Source: Chromatiaceae bacterium (GTDB taxonomy: Bacteria; Pseudomonadota; Gammaproteobacteria; Chromatiales; Chromatiaceae). From it: a stretch of DNA of 64,000 nucleotides. Within the stretch, counting starts at the first letter, position 1; every line of letters begins with the position of its first letter. The DNA lies in the NCBI GenBank assembly GCA_026984455.1, contig JALSSC010000004.1:1-64000 (forward strand). Direction: 5' to 3'. Shown one piece after another: positions 9,627-18,727 of this stretch. The translations under genes were made by a program, and so were the position numbers. Below the pieces are notes generated by a model that was not told the origin of the DNA, ran no database searches, and was given only the letters and a program-made list of their open reading frames with translations.

Positions 9627-9808
9627 GCAAGGACCGGCAGCCCGCGATCCGCCATCCCCTGCTGCCGGCCGTGCTCCTGGCCCTGGCCTTCCTCTCGCCG
9701 TTGACCGGGGTCTGGTCCCTGCCGGGGATGCCCTGGTATCTGCCCTACGGGCTCTGGGCCCTGGTGCTGCTGGCGGCGGCCCTCCTCTGCCAACGCCATG
9801 AGCCATGA
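9623..9808 (+). CDS. small two-helix membrane protein, CbrX-like
   Basis: This 61-residue protein has two predicted membrane helices (LLPAVLLALAFLSPL and YGLWALVLLAAALLC) and a short cytoplasmic tail. Its ATG overlaps the stop of the methyltransferase by four bases, and its own end overlaps the next start (9798) by eleven. It therefore looks translationally coupled to the transporter-type kinase. In Pseudomonas a small membrane protein, CbrX, overlaps cbrA in the same way. By position, size and topology this is a likely counterpart, though sequence similarity could not be tested. It could also resemble the DUF3311 subunits that accompany solute:sodium symporters. Confidence 0.65.
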   Translation: MSKDRQPAIRHPLLPAVLLALAFLSPLTGVWSLPGMPWYLPYGLWALVLLAAALLCQRHEP

Positions 9809-12698
9809 ACTGACCGCCCTGTTCGCCGCCGGGGTGGCCTACCTGGCCCTGCTGTTCCTGATCGCCTATGCCACCGAGAGCGGCCTGGTGCCGGCGCGCT
9901 GGGTGCGCCATCCCTGGGTCTACGTGCTCTCGCTCGGGGTCTACGCCACCTCCTGGAGCTTCTATGGCAGCGTCGGCTTCGCCGCCCGTCAGGGCTATCT
10001 GTTCCTCACCATCTACCTGGGGGTGACCGCCGCCTTCCTGCTCGCCCCCCTGCTCCTGCGCCCGTTGCAGCGCCTGGTGCACGACTATCAGCTCATCTCC
10101 CTGGCCGATCTGTTCGCCTTCCGCTACCGCAGCCAGCTCGCCGGGGCCCTGGTGACCCTGTTCATGCTGCTGGGCGCCCTGCCCTACATCGCCTTGCAGA
10201 TCCGCGCCGTCACCGAGTCCCTGCGGGTGCTCACCGACGAGGCCGCGCCCCAGATCCTGGCCCTGGTGTTCTGCGCCACCCTGACCCTGTTCGCCATCCT
10301 CTTCGGGGCACGGCACATCTCGCCGCGGGAGAAACACCAGGGCCTGGTGGTGGCCATCGCCTTCGAGTCCCTGGTGAAACTGGTGGCCCTGCTGGCAGTG
10401 GGGGGCTTCGCCCTGTTCGGGGTGATGGACGGCCCGGGGGGGCTCGGGCGCTGGCTCAACGCCCACCCCGAGGCCCTGGAGCGCCTCTACGCCCCGGTGC
10501 GCGAGGGGCCCTGGGGCACCCTGATGCTGCTCTCCTTCGCCGCCGCCTTCCTGCTGCCGCGGCAGTTTCACATGATCTTCACCGAAGGCATGGACGACCG
10601 CCATCTGCAGACGGCCGCCTGGGGCCTGCCCCTGTACCTGCTGCTCCTCAACCTGGCGATCCCGCCGGTGCTCTGGGCCGGTCAGGCCCTGGGCCTGACC
10701 CTGGACCCCGACTACTTCGTCCTCGGGGTGACCCTGGGACACGCCCCGGACGGTCTTGCCCTGCTGGCCTTCATCGGCGGCGTCTCCGCCGCCAGCGCCA
10801 TGGTCATCGTCTCCACCCTGGCCCTCTCGGCCATGTGCCTCAATCACCTGTTGCTGCCCGCCAGCTACCCCGACCCCGCCCTGGACCTGTACCGCTGGCT
10901 GTTGTGGGGGCGGCGGATGCTCATCGCCCTGATCATCTTCGCCGGCTTCGGCTTCTACGCCCTGCTCCGCCACCGCCAGGGGCTGGTGCAGCTGGGCCTG
11001 ATCTCCTTCGTGGCCGTGGCCCAGTTCCTGCCGGGGATCGTCGGCGTGCTCTGGTGGCGGCGCGCCACCCGGACAGGCTTCCTCGGCGGCCTGGCGGGGG
11101 GGATCGGGGTCTGGGCGGTGACCCTGCTGTGGCCCCTCCTGGCCACCTCGGGACTGGCCCGGCACGCCCCGGACGTGGCCGCCTGGGAGGCCGCCCTGGG
11201 CTGGGACCACTGGACCTTCGCCACCTTCTGGAGCCTGTGCCTGAATGGCCTCCTGTTCGTCGGCCTGTCCCTGGCCACCCGCCCGGACCCCGGCGAACGC
11301 CAGGCCGCCCTGGCCTGTTGCAGCGATCCCTGGCCGCCCCTGGCGGGGACCGTGAGCGCGCGTTCGCCGCGGGAGTTCCAACAGGACCTGGGCGCGGTGC
11401 TCGGCGAGGCCACCGCCGGGCGCGAGGTGGACCTGGCCCTGAGAGATCTGGGCCTGACCCCGGACGAGACCCGCCCGGCGCAATTGCGGCGTCTGCGCGA
11501 ACGCATCGAGCGCAACCTCTCGGGCCTCATCGGTCCCCAGCTCGCGCATGTGATCGTCAGCCGCCGGCTGCGCCTGGAGCCCGGCCAGGAGGGGGCCCTG
11601 GCGGACTCCATGCGTTTCCTGGAGGAGCGCCTGGAACGCTCCCGCGACCGCCTGCGTGGCCTCTCGGCCGACCTGGACCGCCTGCGCCGCTACCACCGCC
11701 GCATCCTCCAGGAGTTGCCCCTGGGGGTCTGCGCCCTGGACGACGAGGGCCGGGTGCTGATCTGGAACGGGGTGTTGGCGAGGCTCTCCGGGATCTCCCC
11801 GGCGGACGCCGGCGGACGCGCCCTGGAGGACCTGGCCGCCCCCTGGGGCGGACTCCTGGGGGGCTTCCTGCGCTCCGGCCAGCACCACGCCCATCACCTG
11901 CGGGTGGAGGTGGATGCCCGCCCGCGCTGGTTCAACCTCCACCAGGCACGGGTGGCGGATCCGGACGCCGCCCTCGGCGGCCAGGTGATCCTCGCCGAGG
12001 ACATCACCGATCTGGAGAACCTGGAGGCCGAGATCGCCCACAGCGACCGCCTGGCCTCCATCGGCCGCCTCGCCGCCGGGGTCGCCCACGAGATCGGCAA
12101 CCCAGTGACCGCCATCGCCTCCCTGGCCCAGAACCTGCGCGAGGAGACCACGGAGGAGGCCGCGGTCCGGGCCAGCGAGGCCATCCTCCATCAGACCCGG
12201 CGCATCACCGCCATCGTGCGCGCCCTCACGGGCTTCAGCCGCGGCGGTGAGAGCCGTCCCCGGCGCGTGCCGCTGCAACAGGTGGTCGCGGAGGCCCTGG
12301 ACCTGGTGCGGCTCACCCCCCGGGGCAAGCGCCTGGAGATCCTCCAGCATGTCCCCCCGGGCCTGACCGTCACCGCCGACCGCCAGGCCCTGGCGCAGAT
12401 GCTGGTGAACCTGCTCACCAACGCCTGCGACGCCTCACCCGCAGATGGCCGCGTCGAGATCATGGCCTGGGAGGAGGCGGGACAGGTGCAGATCGAGGTC
12501 CTGGACCAGGGGCCCGGCATCGCGCCCGAACGCCAGTCCCTGGTGTTCGAGCCCTTCTACACCACCAAGCCGGCCGGCGAGGGCACCGGCCTCGGTCTGG
12601 CCATGGTCTACCGTATCGTGGAGGCCCATGGCGGGGACATCCGCATCGACTCGGAGGTGGGCACCGGGACCCGCTTTCTGGTGCGGCTGCCGGTCTGA
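9798..12698 (+). CDS. solute:sodium symporter-fused sensor histidine kinase (CbrA-like)
   Basis: This 966-residue protein has an N-terminal SSS-family transporter module of roughly 13 helices (residues about 5-490). A soluble linker and PAS domain follow (near 640-750, LPLGVCALDDEGRVLIWNG). Next come a HisKA domain with GVAHEIGNPVTAI (phosphoryl His764) and an HATPase domain with NLLTNACDA, DQGPGI and GEGTGLGLAM motifs. This is the CbrA architecture, in which a nutrient transporter (histidine in Pseudomonas) is fused to a kinase. There is no STAC response regulator such as CbrB after it: the next gene is convergent and unrelated, so its partner must be encoded elsewhere. The start at 9798 overlaps the upstream small membrane protein. 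The ligand is unknown. Confidence 0.9.
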   Translation: MSHELTALFAAGVAYLALLFLIAYATESGLVPARWVRHPWVYVLSLGVYATSWSFYGSVGFAARQGYLFLTIYLGVTAAFLLAPLLLRPLQRLVHDYQLISLADLFAFRYRSQLAGALVTLFMLLGALPYIALQIRAVTESLRVLTDEAAPQILALVFCATLTLFAILFGARHISPREKHQGLVVAIAFESLVKLVALLAVGGFALFGVMDGPGGLGRWLNAHPEALERLYAPVREGPWGTLMLLSFAAAFLLPRQFHMIFTEGMDDRHLQTAAWGLPLYLLLLNLAIPPVLWAGQALGLTLDPDYFVLGVTLGHAPDGLALLAFIGGVSAASAMVIVSTLALSAMCLNHLLLPASYPDPALDLYRWLLWGRRMLIALIIFAGFGFYALLRHRQGLVQLGLISFVAVAQFLPGIVGVLWWRRATRTGFLGGLAGGIGVWAVTLLWPLLATSGLARHAPDVAAWEAALGWDHWTFATFWSLCLNGLLFVGLSLATRPDPGERQAALACCSDPWPPLAGTVSARSPREFQQDLGAVLGEATAGREVDLALRDLGLTPDETRPAQLRRLRERIERNLSGLIGPQLAHVIVSRRLRLEPGQEGALADSMRFLEERLERSRDRLRGLSADLDRLRRYHRRILQELPLGVCALDDEGRVLIWNGVLARLSGISPADAGGRALEDLAAPWGGLLGGFLRSGQHHAHHLRVEVDARPRWFNLHQARVADPDAALGGQVILAEDITDLENLEAEIAHSDRLASIGRLAAGVAHEIGNPVTAIASLAQNLREETTEEAAVRASEAILHQTRRITAIVRALTGFSRGGESRPRRVPLQQVVAEALDLVRLTPRGKRLEILQHVPPGLTVTADRQALAQMLVNLLTNACDASPADGRVEIMAWEEAGQVQIEVLDQGPGIAPERQSLVFEPFYTTKPAGEGTGLGLAMVYRIVEAHGGDIRIDSEVGTGTRFLVRLPV

Positions 12699-12699
12699 G

Positions 12700-13077
12700 T
12701 CAACGTCCGGCGATGAAGGCGTCGATGGCCGCCACGATCCGTCCACAGAGGGCCTGGGCCGCCGCCGGATCGCCGAGGTCGGCGTCGGCCATGGTCTGCA
12801 CCCGGACCCCCCGGGCCTCGGCCACCGCCCGGTCCAGGCCGGCGCCGGCCCCGCCCGCGGCGACCAGCAATTCCAGGCGCGGCATGGCGGCCAGTTCCGG
12901 CGCGCCGATGGCGGTATCCAGGACCACCAGGACGTTGGCGCGCCAGCAACGCTCCCTCAGGGCCTCCCCTTCCAGGGAGAGGTACTGCTCCCAGCCGTAG
13001 CGGGCCGCCTCCAGGGGGGGGAACTCGACCCCCGCGGGCAGGCGGGCGGCGTCCACGACGACGATGTTGATGGCCAT
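12700..13077 (-). CDS. stand-alone catalytic domain of a D-2-hydroxyacid dehydrogenase, lacking the NAD domain
   Basis: This 125-residue protein matches the substrate-binding domain of D-isomer-specific 2-hydroxyacid dehydrogenases. MAINIVVVDA begins the first strand. ELAAMPRLELLVAAGGAGAG (residues 62-81) with RGVRVQTMADAD just after is the family block usually followed by the NAD-binding domain. Here the sequence jumps to AQALCGRIVAAIDAFIAGR, which resembles the C-terminal helix that packs back on the catalytic domain in the complete enzymes. The roughly 190-residue Rossmann domain, with its GxGxxG and catalytic Arg/Glu/His, is absent. It cannot be a dehydrogenase by itself. The frame is clean with a normal start, so it may have a binding or regulatory role, or be a recent deletion product. 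The stop is two bases from that of the convergent kinase. Confidence 0.7.
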   Translation of the reverse strand: MAINIVVVDAARLPAGVEFPPLEAARYGWEQYLSLEGEALRERCWRANVLVVLDTAIGAPELAAMPRLELLVAAGGAGAGLDRAVAEARGVRVQTMADADLGDPAAAQALCGRIVAAIDAFIAGR

Positions 13078-13135: not shown

Positions 13136-14026
13136 TCACCGGGGGGCCGGGTCCGGGCCCAGCACCGTCGAAACCTGCGCCAGGGCGGTCACCACGCCGT
13201 CCGGCTCCACCCCCCGGCAGCGGGGGTCGTCGCGGCGCCAACGCAGGGAACGCCGGTCGCCCGCGAACAACAGGGCGTGCATCCCCTCGGCCTGCGCCGG
13301 CCATACGTCCTTGAGCCGGTCGTTACCCACATAGAGCACCTCCCGGGGGGCGATCCCCTCCCCGCGCAGGCCCGAGAGGGCCTCGCCATAGAGCCGCCGG
13401 GAGGGCTTGGCCTCGCGCAGGCGATAGGACCAGACACAGCGGTCCGGAACGAATCCCAGGGCCGCGAGGCCCTGTCCGGTGAGGGCCTCCAGCATCAGCG
13501 GGGTGTAGAACTGGGCGTTGGAGACGATGCCGAGCAGCACCCCCCGCGCCCTCAGCGCGGCCAGCAGGTCCACCAGACCCGGCATCGGCCAGACCGGGTT
13601 GACGCGGCATTCGTAGTCTATGGCCAGGCGTTCGAGGCTGGCCTCCACCGGGACGATGCCGTCCTGGGCGAGGAGTTCCCCCCAGACCTCGCGGATATCC
13701 ACCTCGGGATACTCGATCCCCTCGGCCCGGCGGCGGGCATGGTGGGCCCTGATCACCGCCTTGAGTCGCGCCGGCCCATCCTCCATGGAGGGCAGGCCCT
13801 GCCCGGCCAGGGCCGCGGCGAAGGCCTCCTCCTCGTGCTCTTCACCGCCCAGGCCGATGTCTCCGGAGGCGGAGACCACCAGGGTGCCGTAGACGTCGAA
13901 CAGGACGGCGCGAATGCCGGGGATCCGCGACAGCCGCGGGTGCTCGCCGGTGGCCTGGGGCGCCAGCGGGGACGACAGGGCGCGAATATGGGCCACCCAG
14001 TCCGGGGGCATGAGGTCTCGAGTCAT
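13136..14026 (-). CDS. HAD-superfamily hydrolase (haloacid dehalogenase-like phosphatase)
   Basis: This 296-residue protein carries all four HAD motifs. VLFDVYGTLV near residue 42 has the nucleophile Asp (Tyr sits where many phosphatases have a second Asp, as in dehalogenase-type members). LGIVSNAQF near residue 166 is motif II, KPSRRLYGEA motif III and VLYVGNDRLKDV motif IV. A helical cap lies between motifs I and II. The start is three bases after the stop of the glycosyltransferase, so the two are co-translated. In this context it could remove phosphate from a sugar-phosphate product of the glycosyltransferase, as in two-step compatible-solute synthesis (synthase plus phosphatase). That assignment is inference from context. 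Confidence 0.82.
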   Translation of the reverse strand: MTRDLMPPDWVAHIRALSSPLAPQATGEHPRLSRIPGIRAVLFDVYGTLVVSASGDIGLGGEEHEEEAFAAALAGQGLPSMEDGPARLKAVIRAHHARRRAEGIEYPEVDIREVWGELLAQDGIVPVEASLERLAIDYECRVNPVWPMPGLVDLLAALRARGVLLGIVSNAQFYTPLMLEALTGQGLAALGFVPDRCVWSYRLREAKPSRRLYGEALSGLRGEGIAPREVLYVGNDRLKDVWPAQAEGMHALLFAGDRRSLRWRRDDPRCRGVEPDGVVTALAQVSTVLGPDPAPR

Positions 14027-14029
14027 GGG

Positions 14030-15481
14030 TCAGGCCTTCAGTAGAAACAGACGTTCGGGGGCCAGGCAGGCATCCAGCAGGGCCTCGCCCGAGGCGGCCC
14101 CCAGGGGCTCCTGGCCGCTTCCGGCGACATCCCCGTAGAGGTGCCGCAGGCGTTCGGCGTAACGCTCCAGGCCCAGTTCGGCGAGGATCCGCGCGCGGTT
14201 GTGGGCGATCCGGGCGGGGCCGCCGTCCACCCGCAGGGGGGCCACGGGGCGCTCGCCCGGCGGGGTGGCCAGCAGACGGCGCAGGGCCCGCTCCTGGAGG
14301 GGTTCGTCGAGGCGGCCCAGGTCCACGCGCCGGTCCTGCACCCAGGCCGCCCAGGCGCGTTCCTCCAGTTCCGGGGCGCTGCGCCGGCCGTAGGCGGCCA
14401 GGCTGCGTTCCAGGGCGGTGCGCAGGCGCCGCCCCAGGTCATCCGCGCCCACCCAGTCCAAGGGCACCGGCAGACGCCCATAGAGGCCCCCGAGGTCGAT
14501 GCCCATATCCAGGAAATCGCGGGTGATCTCGGGCAGATCGCGGCCCGCCAGGGGCCGGCCCAGCAGCCAGGGCTCCAGGAAGGCCAGGCCGAAGCCCTCG
14601 GTGATACTGGTGGTCACCAGGGCATGGGCGGACGCCAGGAGATGCACGAAATCGCCGGCGTAACGCGCCCCCAGCTCGAAGGTCACGGGCAGGCGCAAGG
14701 CCTCGGCGACCGCCTTCCAACGCTGGTAGACGGGTTGTTCGGCGGGATTGGCGGGGGCCTGGGTGGCGGCGAAGCGGTCGCCCTCCCCGGCCAGGGCCGA
14801 CCAGAACAGGAACTCCCCGATATTCTTGCGCCGGATGGCGCGGGTGGGATAGAGCCACAGGCGCTCCGCCTCCAGGGGCAGGGGGGCGGGCGGCCCACCC
14901 CCGGGCGACGGCAGCCAGACCGCGTTGGGCAGCAGGTGCAGGCGCCCGGCGGGGACCCCGGCGGCCGCCAGCCAGCCGCGGTCGCGGCCGTTGAGCACCG
15001 CGTAGTGCACCCGCCCCCCCAGCGGGTAGAGCAGGGCCGAAGGATCGCCGCCCTCCGCCGCCAGGGACTCGCGCAGGCGCCGGTAGAGGTGCGGCCGCCC
15101 GTCCTCGGCCAGATCGTGCAGTTGCAGCAGCAGGGCCTCGCCGGCCCGCGCCAGGTCCTGCACCGCCCCGGGCATGGCCAGGTTCTTGCCCAGGCTGTGG
15201 TTGTGGATATGCCACAGATCCGGCCCCCCGCCGAGGGCCTCACGGGCGGCGCGGCGCAGACGCCGGGCCAGCTCGCGGCCGTCCCAGCGGGCACGCTGCT
15301 CCTCGTAGCCCAGGCCCTCCAGGACCACCACCGGCGTCCCGTGGGGCAGCGGCTCGGCCGGCGCCTCCCCGCTCAGGACGACGATCCGCAGGCCGCTGCC
15401 GGCGAGGGCCTCCAGGGCGTGCTCGATCACCCGGGTGACCCCGCCGGTGCGGAGATGATAGTGGACGATGGCGATCTGCAA
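14030..15481 (-). CDS. GT4-type glycosyltransferase
   Basis: This protein of about 483 residues has a GT-B fold. The N-terminus [20 protein letters not shown] is the typical acceptor-domain start. [11 protein letters not shown] near residue 100 and the C-terminal EGFGLAFLE (an E-x7-E motif) with [11 protein letters not shown] bind the donor nucleotide sugar. The frame is open to 15586, but the best start is TTG at 15481, nine bases after AAGGA; an ATG at 15523 has no ribosome site. It is the first gene of a leftward operon with the HAD phosphatase and is divergent from a second glycosyltransferase. This suggests a shared regulatory region and a joint pathway. Donor and acceptor are not deducible. 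Confidence 0.82.
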
Positions 15482-15597
15482 CGGAGCGGATCCTTGATAT
15501 GGATGGAAGACAGGGCCTATCATCCAGGCGTCACGCGATGGGCGCAGCCTGGAACCGGCAGGACGTCGGAAACGGCGGACACCCATGCGCCGCCCAG

Positions 15598-15630
15598 CGC
15601 CCGGCGAAAGGCCAGGCCTTTCGCCGGGCG
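15598..15630. repeat. 33-nt perfect palindrome in the divergent glycosyltransferase promoter region
   Basis: CGCCCGGCGAAAGGC (15598-15612) is followed by a CAG loop and its exact reverse complement to 15630. This 15-bp perfect stem lies between the divergent starts at 15481 and 15691, just before an AT-rich GATTATATACC segment that may be a -10 region. It may act as an operator, a cruciform, or a terminator for read-through in either direction. No T run follows on either strand. Confidence 0.7.
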
Positions 15631-15690
15631 GCCAGAGTTCGATTATATACCTCTCCCCGCCGGACCGCCTCCGGCCAAGGATCTGACGCC

Positions 15691-16953
15691 ATGCCGCACA
15701 ACGTGGGTTTCGTCTCCACCCGTTTCGCGGGCACCGACGGGGTCTCCCTGGAATCGGCCAAATGGGCCGAGGTCCTGTGGGAGGACCGCCACATCTCCTT
15801 TTGGTACGCGGGCAGCCTGGACCGCGCGCCCGACATCAGCATGTGCATCCCCGAGGCCCACTTCGGGCACCCGGAGAACGTCTGGATCAATCATCAGTTG
15901 TGGGGCCGGACCCGCCGCTGTCCCGAGGTGAGCCGGCGCATCCACGACCTCTCCGAGTACCTCAAGACCACCCTCTACGAATACCGCAAGCGCTTCGATC
16001 TGGACCTGCTCATCGTCCAGAACGCCCTCACCATCCCCATGCACATCCCCCTGGGGATCGCCCTGACCGAGTTTCTGCTGGAGACGCGGATGCCGGCCAT
16101 CGCCCATCACCACGACTTCTACTGGGAGCGTGACCGTTTCCAGATCTCGGCGGTGGACGACTACCTGGAGATGGCCTTCCCCCCGCGCATCCCCCACCTC
16201 CAGCACGTGGTCATCAACCAGACCGGACGCGAGCGCCTGGCCTGGCGCAAGGGCCTGCCCTGCCTGCTGATCCCCAACGTCTTCGACTTCGACATCCCCC
16301 CCGAGCCGGTGGACGACTACGCCGCCGACCTGCGCCGGGAGATCGGTCTCACCGACGAGGACCGGATGATCCTCCAACCCACCCGGGTGGTGCCGCGCAA
16401 GGGCATCGAGCACGCCATCTCCCTGTTGCGCCGCCTGCGCGACCCGCGTTGCAAGCTGGTGATCTCCCACGACTCGGGGGACGAGGGCCAGGACTACCTG
16501 GAACAACTGGTGGAACTGGCCCAGGACGAGGGCGTCGAACTGCGGCTCATCGCCGACCGCATCGCCGACCGCCGCCAGCTCGATGCCCGAGGACGCAAGA
16601 TGTACGTCCTCGAGGACCTCTATCCCCACGCCGACATCGTCACCTTTCCCAGTCTCTACGAGGGCTTCGGCAACGCCCTGTTGGAGGCCATCTATTTCCG
16701 CCGTCCGGTGATCGTCAACCGCTACTCGGTGTTCATCCGCGACATCGAACCCAAGGGCTTCCGCCTGCCCACCATGGACGGCTTCGTCTCCCGCCGTCTG
16801 ATCGAGGAGACGCGGCGCATCCTGCAGGACGAGGCCTACCGTGAGGAACTGGTGGATCACAACTACCAGGTGGCCCGCCGCTATTACGGTTACCCGGTGT
16901 TGCGCCACGGCCTGCGCAACCTGTTCGACAACATCCGACATCAGACGGAGTAG
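15691..16953 (+). CDS. GT4-type glycosyltransferase, possibly sugar-glycerate or sucrose-type synthase
   Basis: This 420-residue protein begins [20 protein letters not shown], the GT-B N-terminal start with the acceptor-side FxGTDGVS loop. [13 protein letters not shown] near residue 135 is a conserved acceptor-site block. The C-terminal half has [16 protein letters not shown] (donor phosphate-binding KG region) and [20 protein letters not shown] (E-x7-E). AAGGA lies nine bases before the ATG. It is followed within five bases by a GH13_18 phosphorylase and a cupin, forming one operon. That pairing of GT4 synthase and GH13_18 phosphorylase suggests a glucosyl-solute such as glucosylglycerate, mannosylglucosylglycerate or sucrose. 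The exact product is inferred, not shown. Confidence 0.82.
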
Positions 16954-16957
16954 GCCC

Positions 16958-18727
16958 ATGATCCACATCCTCCCCGCCGAGATCATGCAGCGCATCGGCG
17001 AACGCCTGGCCTACCTCTACGGCGAGGACCTGAAGCCGCGTCTGCTCGAACGCATCGCCCTGTTCGCCGGGCGTTACGGCCTCGACACTTGCCCCGAGGG
17101 CGCCTGCGAGGGGCCGCTCTGGGATCAGACCGACGCCATCCTCATCACCTACGGCGACATGGTCCGGCGCGAGGGCGAGGCGCCCCTGGCGGTGCTGCAC
17201 CGATTTCTGGACGCCCACCTCCAGGACGCCATCTCCGGGGTGCACGTCCTGCCCTTCTTCCCCTACAGCTCCGACGACGGCTTCTCGGTGATCGACTTCC
17301 GCCAGGTGGACCCCGCCCTGGGCGACTGGGATCAAATCCGCGCCCTGGGCAAACGCTACCGCCTGATGGTGGACCTGGTGCTCAATCACTGCTCGCGCGA
17401 GAGCGCCTGGTTCCGCAACTACACCAACGGCATCGCCCCGGAGCGGGACTACTTCATCGAGGTGGACCCGGACGAGGCCAGCGGCCTCGACCAGGTGGTG
17501 CGTCCGCGCAGTCTGCCGTTGCTCACCCCCACCCAGACCGCCTACGGCGAGCGTCACCTCTGGACCACCTTCAGCAGCGACCAGATCGACCTCAACTACG
17601 CCAACCAGGACGTCCTGTTCGAGATCCTGGACATCCTTCTGCTGTACATCTACAAGGGTGCGCGCATCGTCCGCCTGGACGCCATCGCCTACCTCTGGAA
17701 GGAACTGGGCACCCCCTGCATCCACCTGCCCCAGACCCACCAGGTGGTCAAGCTCATGCGCGACCTCCTGGAGATGCTCGCCCCCGGGGTGATCCTCCTC
17801 ACCGAGACCAATGTCCCCCACGCCGAGAACATCGCCTACTTCGGCGACGGCGACGAGGCGCGCATGGTCTACCAGTTCAGCCTGCCCCCCCTGCTGCTGC
17901 ACGCCCTCCACACCGGCAATGCGCGTTACCTGCACCAGTGGGCGGCGGAACTGGCGCCGCCGCCGCCCGGCTGCACCTGGTTCAACTTCACCGCCTCCCA
18001 CGACGGCATCGGGGTGCGTCCCCTCGAGGGCCTGATCCCACCCGAGGAACTCGATGCGCTGGTGACGGCGGTGGAGAGACGCGGCGGTCGGGTCTCCACC
18101 CGTACCGACGCCTCCGGCCGGGAGGTCCCCTACGAACTCAACATCACCTACTTCGACGCCCTCTCCGACCCCGGCCAGGCCGAGAGTGAACGCCACATCG
18201 CCCGTTTCCTCTGCTCCCAGGCCATCATGCTGGGCCTCCAGGGCATCCCCGGCATCTACTTCAACAGCCTGGTGGGGGGGCGCAACAACCAGGTCGGCTT
18301 CCGCCACACCGGCCGCCCCCGCACCCTCAACCGCCAGAAATGGGACGAGGCCCAACTCACCCAGCGCCTGGCGGACACCACCGGCGCCGGCGGCCGGGTG
18401 TTCAAGCAATACCGCCATCTGCTGCAACTACGCCGGGCCCATAGCGCCTTCCACCCGGACGCTCCCCAGCAGGTCCTGGACCTGGACGAGGCCCTGTTCG
18501 GCTTCGTACGCACCGCCCCGGACGGCGGCGAACGCCTGATCGCCCTGCACAACCTCAGCGACCGGCCCCAGGACCTGGATCTGGCCTCCCGCTATCCCGA
18601 CTTCGCCGGCCCGGTCTGGTGCGAACTCATCCAGGGCCAACGCCTCCAGGGCGAGGCCGGCGCCCGCCTGCACCTGGCCCCCTACCAGACCCTCTGGCTC
18701 ACCACCGCCACCGAACCCGATGCCTGA
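16958..18727 (+). CDS. GH13 subfamily 18 sucrose/glucosylglycerate phosphorylase-like enzyme
   Basis: This 589-residue TIM-barrel protein matches the sucrose phosphorylase subfamily. GVHVLPFFPYSSDDGFSVID (residues 93-112) is the diagnostic GH13_18 block. VDLVLNHCSRES is region I, RIVRLDAIAYLWKELG near 239 holds the catalytic nucleophile Asp, LTETNVPHAEN near 285 the acid/base Glu, and FTASHDGIGVRP near 345 the transition-state Asp. The family reversibly phosphorolyses sucrose, sucrose-6-phosphate, glucosylglycerol or glucosylglycerate, giving glucose-1-phosphate. The neighbouring glycosyltransferase suggests it recycles the product made by that gene. The ATG at 16958 is five bases after the previous stop. 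Substrate choice depends on loop residues that cannot be settled here. Confidence 0.88.
   Translation: MIHILPAEIMQRIGERLAYLYGEDLKPRLLERIALFAGRYGLDTCPEGACEGPLWDQTDAILITYGDMVRREGEAPLAVLHRFLDAHLQDAISGVHVLPFFPYSSDDGFSVIDFRQVDPALGDWDQIRALGKRYRLMVDLVLNHCSRESAWFRNYTNGIAPERDYFIEVDPDEASGLDQVVRPRSLPLLTPTQTAYGERHLWTTFSSDQIDLNYANQDVLFEILDILLLYIYKGARIVRLDAIAYLWKELGTPCIHLPQTHQVVKLMRDLLEMLAPGVILLTETNVPHAENIAYFGDGDEARMVYQFSLPPLLLHALHTGNARYLHQWAAELAPPPPGCTWFNFTASHDGIGVRPLEGLIPPEELDALVTAVERRGGRVSTRTDASGREVPYELNITYFDALSDPGQAESERHIARFLCSQAIMLGLQGIPGIYFNSLVGGRNNQVGFRHTGRPRTLNRQKWDEAQLTQRLADTTGAGGRVFKQYRHLLQLRRAHSAFHPDAPQQVLDLDEALFGFVRTAPDGGERLIALHNLSDRPQDLDLASRYPDFAGPVWCELIQGQRLQGEAGARLHLAPYQTLWLTTATEPDA

Follow-up and report, generated by a model that had tools for sequence, protein, structure and literature searches.

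A 125-residue protein encoded in the window, the 64,000-nucleotide stretch of DNA analysed here, belongs to a family of short proteins that very probably arose when an HprA-like D-2-hydroxyacid dehydrogenase (2HADH) lost its NAD domain. When this origin is taken together with a present working mode, we give a somewhat better than even chance to the reading that the protein, here called X, is such a descendant by excision and now acts as a non-catalytic binding or regulatory protein. As the first-pass annotation had proposed, positions 12700-13077 hold an intact-frame protein of 125 residues; it is read on the minus strand (13077..12700) from an ATG at 13077 to a stop codon at 12700-12702. The GC content of its three codon positions (0.81/0.52/0.92) follows the pattern of coding DNA. 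The coordinates of X, of its parts and of its neighbours are collected in Table 1.

Table 1. Features of X and its surroundings in the window
Feature	Position	Strand	Basis
Sensor kinase, 966 aa, PAS + HisKA + HATPase	9798-12698	plus	domain matches
X CDS, single-domain 2HADH-like, 125 aa	12700..13077	minus	ORF call, 26 family members of same length, AlphaFold2 pLDDT 92.1
X residues 104-124, C-terminal helix, corresponding to last helix of full-length enzymes	12706..12768	minus	tail profile and predicted helix 104-124
Approximate excision junction, after about residue 98; 188 residues (NAD-binding domain) absent relative to L018	12781..12784	minus	unaided MAFFT alignment
X residues 1-98, N-terminal piece of former catalytic domain, beta1 to beta5	12784..13077	minus	alignment to L018 residues 1-98 and secondary structure
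HAD-type hydrolase, directly upstream of X, 58 nt gap	13136..14026	minus	PF00702 E 1.1e-12
GT4 glycosyltransferase	14030-15586	minus	
Glycosyltransferase closest to mannosylglucosylglycerate synthase	15685-16950	plus	well below cut-off, 214.7 of 640 bits
GH13 sucrose/glucosylglycerol phosphorylase-like enzyme	16955-18727	plus	

Taken alone, X was matched weakly by Pfam 2-Hacid_dh (E 0.077) and by NCBIfam PRK06932 with an E of 5.8e-5, and a phmmer search of the PDB returned nothing at E<=1. At the level of the family, PF00389 matched 13 of 14 members (best E 1.4e-16) and the family profile matched dehydrogenases of the PDB (best E 3.7e-7), while PF02826, the inserted NAD(P)-binding Rossmann domain, found no match at E<=1 in the same 14 members. 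In an unaided MAFFT alignment with L018, a full-length HprA-like relative of 317 aa, the part missing from X covers residues 99-286, so that the roughly 190-residue NAD-binding domain reported absent at first pass measures 188 residues against this enzyme. The GxGxxG motif at position 154 of L018 lies inside the absent stretch, as do the segments starting at 231, 258 and 283, which we take to be those holding the catalytic Arg, Glu and His. Since the nucleotide-binding motif and the catalytic residues went with the cofactor domain, X would be unable to act as a dehydrogenase of this kind. The two pieces that are left, the N-terminal piece and the C-terminal helix, align end to end with HprA-like 2HADHs (NCBIfam PRK06932 and PRK06487; L018), and V6, D9, W29, L68, L70, A74, D82, A86, G90 and I118 are common to these enzymes and the X family. 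The HprA-like enzymes possess the NAD-binding domain, GxGxxG, the catalytic Arg/Glu/His and the substrate loops NKV and ATGTNN, whereas the X family is without all of them. A profile of the X-family tail matched 47 of 49 full-length enzymes, and for 46 of the 47 the hit lay within the final 40 residues; with 539 reversed or shuffled sequences as controls, 23 of the 49 scored above the best control (best 24.4 bits vs a control maximum of 3.6).

The AlphaFold2 model of X (pLDDT 92.1, pTM 0.87) is predicted to adopt the fold of the dehydrogenase catalytic, or substrate, domain, with 122 of its 125 residues aligned to 5tx7_A at a Z of 17.2 and an rmsd of 2.0. 5tx7 is a D-isomer specific 2-hydroxyacid dehydrogenase from Desulfovibrio vulgaris, a two-domain enzyme with a 323-residue chain; its substrate domain has the same fold as X, and X is that domain alone. 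Because the alignment runs over the chain range 0..312 of 5tx7_A, the C-terminal helix of X would occupy the place of the enzyme's last helix. An orthologue modelled separately (pLDDT 93.8) aligned to a 2HADH structure with a Z of 19.6 over 129 of 133 residues. The tail profile and the structural alignment across both pieces agree with the earlier description of X as an N-terminal flavodoxin-like part joined to a C-terminal helix.

X is not alone. A whole-genome search yielded a same-length relative with 39% identity (G020), and a two-row profile then brought out the short family. Eleven of 369 genomes of the class, the source genome included, matched this profile at E<=2.5e-31, the next match (E 6.6e-17) being a full enzyme of 317 aa. 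Matches were obtained in 6 of 194 genomes of the taxonomic family and, at E<=1e-15, in 6 of 210 genomes of the order. Among 398 genomes of the phylum the window copy was the only short match; the seven further matches there came from full-length frames (317-363 aa). Named genomes were scanned as well and yielded 13 loci, including symbionts of the tubeworms Lamellibrachia and Escarpia and one Chromatiales MAG. The collected short copies number 26 distinct sequences of about 120-141 aa, with a patchy distribution in Gammaproteobacteria. Searches for X in plasmid and phage records (tblastn, E<=1e-5) came back empty, none of 68 pattern stretches in viral contigs was confirmed, and no predicted viral structure matched at E<=0.001; a phage or plasmid gene was therefore rejected as far as the searched collections show. 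Of the full-length enzymes, the 317-aa L018 (also L081, from G360) gave the best score against the short-family profile (90.9 bits), and it adjoins genes that by eye resemble NAD-linked hydrogenase subunits; this enzyme is a candidate for the nearest living relative of X's parent.

The short proteins keep the fold residues and differ from full-length enzymes in others. Among 48 full-length proteins, a set chosen by similarity to X that represents the nearest enzymes and not all 2HADHs, the residues of the parent substrate loops N53-K54-V55 and A75-T76-G77-T78-N79-N80 show 83-100% conservation, and each of them falls below 25% in the 26 short proteins. New in the short proteins are F19, P20 and R46 (100%), C111 (96%), W45 and Q31 (92% each), C44 (85%) and H80 (77%). 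Because the NKV and ATGTNN loops are lost and new invariant residues are present, a retained hydroxyacid-binding role for the family is doubtful, and the suggestion that X is a substrate-binding protein is not supported in the sense of keeping the old substrate; the first-pass alternative of a regulator is conceivable. One might instead suppose that X, once the NAD domain was lost, evolved a catalytic activity of its own by way of Cys111, Cys44, Arg46 and His80, and the conservation of these residues and of W45, each of which is present in less than 25% of the 48 full-length proteins, speaks for such an enzyme. However, at the positions of the two cysteines the parent enzymes mostly have hydrophobic residues (I, L, V), so that the cysteines may do no more than pack the core; moreover, 4 of the 26 copies have no C44 and 1 has no C111, and the window copy is without H80. 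We regard a new enzyme as unlikely. A partner subunit, which would bind a full-length 2HADH or another protein with an NAD domain and complete or inhibit it, is distinctly unlikely. X does share its fold with the partner's own domain, and one full-length SerA-like enzyme (G000:C20, PF00389 E 4.6e-20) is encoded by the host, but nothing else in the window genome passes the PF00389 cut-off, and the X family has lost the substrate loops. PF02826 gave 15 matches at E<=1 in this genome, three of them over the cut-off, the SerA-like one included.

Selection was measured in close pairs of short-family relatives. In 11 of 12 pairs dN/dS was 0.04-0.16, and in the twelfth dS was saturated; the pairs were relatives above 66% identity, and the window copy, whose nearest relatives stand at about 50%, is in none of them. 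For the window copy itself, constraint is read from the intact frame and the codon-position GC together with the predicted fold. It has lost family features, namely H80, P97 and the C-terminal N-x-V residues, and since no relative is close enough for a dN/dS of its own, relaxed constraint in its lineage is conceivable. Its divergence (29-50% identity to 13 relatives) and the missing N-x-V residues, which most relatives have, could be taken to mean that X is a decaying remnant or an assembly artefact. Against this, the frame is intact with a coding GC pattern, the same-length relatives are under purifying selection and the AlphaFold2 model is compact and of high confidence; for the family this reading is already contradicted, and for X we consider it very improbable. 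The first-pass proposal of a fixed gene is supported by the same-length copies in related genomes, 26 in all, and by the purifying selection in relatives. Neither outcome named at first pass as refuting it was observed: orthologues of this length do occur, with no signs of neutral decay in the family, and the model resembles the dehydrogenase catalytic domain.

When 66 proteins were placed in a tree with SerA-like enzymes as the root, the 26 short ones formed a single clade (support 88/74), which together with the HprA-like enzymes was supported at 99.4/97, and several full-length lineages branched earlier. This tree used 16 of the 49 full-length rows, L027 not among them, and the outgroups O_L139, L135, L134 and L142 were dropped from its alignment. 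With a set of 75 proteins, a 97/100 group comprised the 26 short proteins and one long-branch full-length enzyme, L027; without L027, which was dropped from the FastTree run and also from the residue comparison, short and full-length proteins were split with a support of 1.0. Alignment A2 took 14 and A4 23 of the 26 short copies. Support is moderate because the trees rest on about 130 columns only. Its branching among 2HADH sequences places the X family, by descent, in the 2HADH homologous superfamily. Since the short copies form one clade within the full-length enzymes, a single ancient excision in an HprA-like ancestor would be the simplest history, and the domain excision suggested at first pass is upheld by the alignment, by the dehydrogenase-domain model and by the nesting of the clade. 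The excision appears to be old and common to the short family rather than an event in the window genome. That X was derived recently from another gene of the window genome was rejected, given that only one SerA-like enzyme passes PF00389 and that the family is shared. That X is instead an ancestral single-domain protein into which the NAD domain was later inserted to give the enzymes, as inserted-domain architectures must once have come about and as its uninterrupted domain might recall, is most improbable, since X sits beside HprA-like enzymes with SerA-like and several full-length lineages branching earlier, and the short form was found in only a part of Gammaproteobacteria, a sample of 397 other genomes of the phylum yielding no further copy.

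For the excised descendant that we favour, the following course can be proposed. An ancestor of X very probably lost the whole inserted NAD(P)-binding domain in frame; alignment, model and tree show that both parts of the discontinuous flavodoxin-like domain are now joined directly in a compact protein. Under selection the fold was kept and new conserved residues arose, while the parent substrate loops were lost. The edge of the sheet that once faced the cofactor domain may now be exposed and bind either a partner protein or a small molecule other than the old one, by which X could modulate amino-acid or central metabolism.

The neighbourhood of X was compared across the 26 loci, and no gene neighbour common to all of them was found. 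In 8 loci (L070, L085-L089, L091 and L094) a divergent alanine-aminotransferase-like gene lies beside X at a spacing of about 70-110 bp; its best NCBIfam model is alanine aminotransferase, below the cut-off with 341 of 534 bits. A further aminotransferase hit in L075 is a distant gene with 24% identity and was left out of the 8. By eye, a TATAAT-like box stands shortly before X in most of the divergent intergenic stretches of L085-L089, L091 and L094. The order trpD-X-trpC was found in 3 loci of one genus (L076, L077 and L078, from tubeworm-symbiont genomes); there the trp cluster runs trpG (by eye), trpD, X, trpC, and the end of X overlaps the start of the listed trpC ORF by 11 bp. Three loci have DUF6763 upstream on the opposite strand and a TerB-DnaJ gene downstream, the latter overlapping X by a few bases in L072 and L073, and in three X precedes CvfB. 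The remaining 9 of the 26 loci fit none of these four recurrent patterns. The recurrent neighbours point X toward amino-acid metabolism, which is suggestive and not proof.

In the window itself, the HAD-type hydrolase gene may be co-transcribed with X, and comparison with the other 25 loci turned up no such hydrolase close to X. On the other strand, the sensor kinase, whose long N-terminal part looks multi-spanning by eye, ends one base short of the X stop codon. The genes at 14030-18727 possibly form a compatible-solute cluster. D-glycerate is the kind of molecule that X's parent would have handled; X was not seen beside compatible-solute genes elsewhere.

No description of the X family was found in the open-licence PMC papers searched, and it is apparently undescribed and new, within a known fold superfamily. 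We consider it an even call that this is a family in which a complete inserted domain was cleanly removed, the uninterrupted fold restored and a new conserved surface formed, giving a stand-alone sensor or adaptor linked to amino-acid genes in several lineages. Genes such as X are easily mis-annotated as truncated dehydrogenases. Its parent, its boundaries and its lost and gained residues can be named, and therefore the role of a lone 2HADH substrate domain is directly testable. Inserted domains are common, and to our knowledge clear removals in which the host domain survives as a selected protein are rarely documented. CtBP and its plant homologue AN presumably keep the cofactor domain; X, unlike them, has lost it entirely. 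According to PMC6303947, AN lacks the catalytic residues, and CtBP/AN and X are alike in being 2HADH descendants with non-enzymatic roles or without catalytic residues. The term 'domain atrophy', as used in PMC4432964, covers proteins that have lost large structural parts, with PurK compared to the 2HADH NAD domain as an example; in those cases part of a domain's core has disappeared, whereas X is missing an entire inserted domain and keeps its host domain whole.
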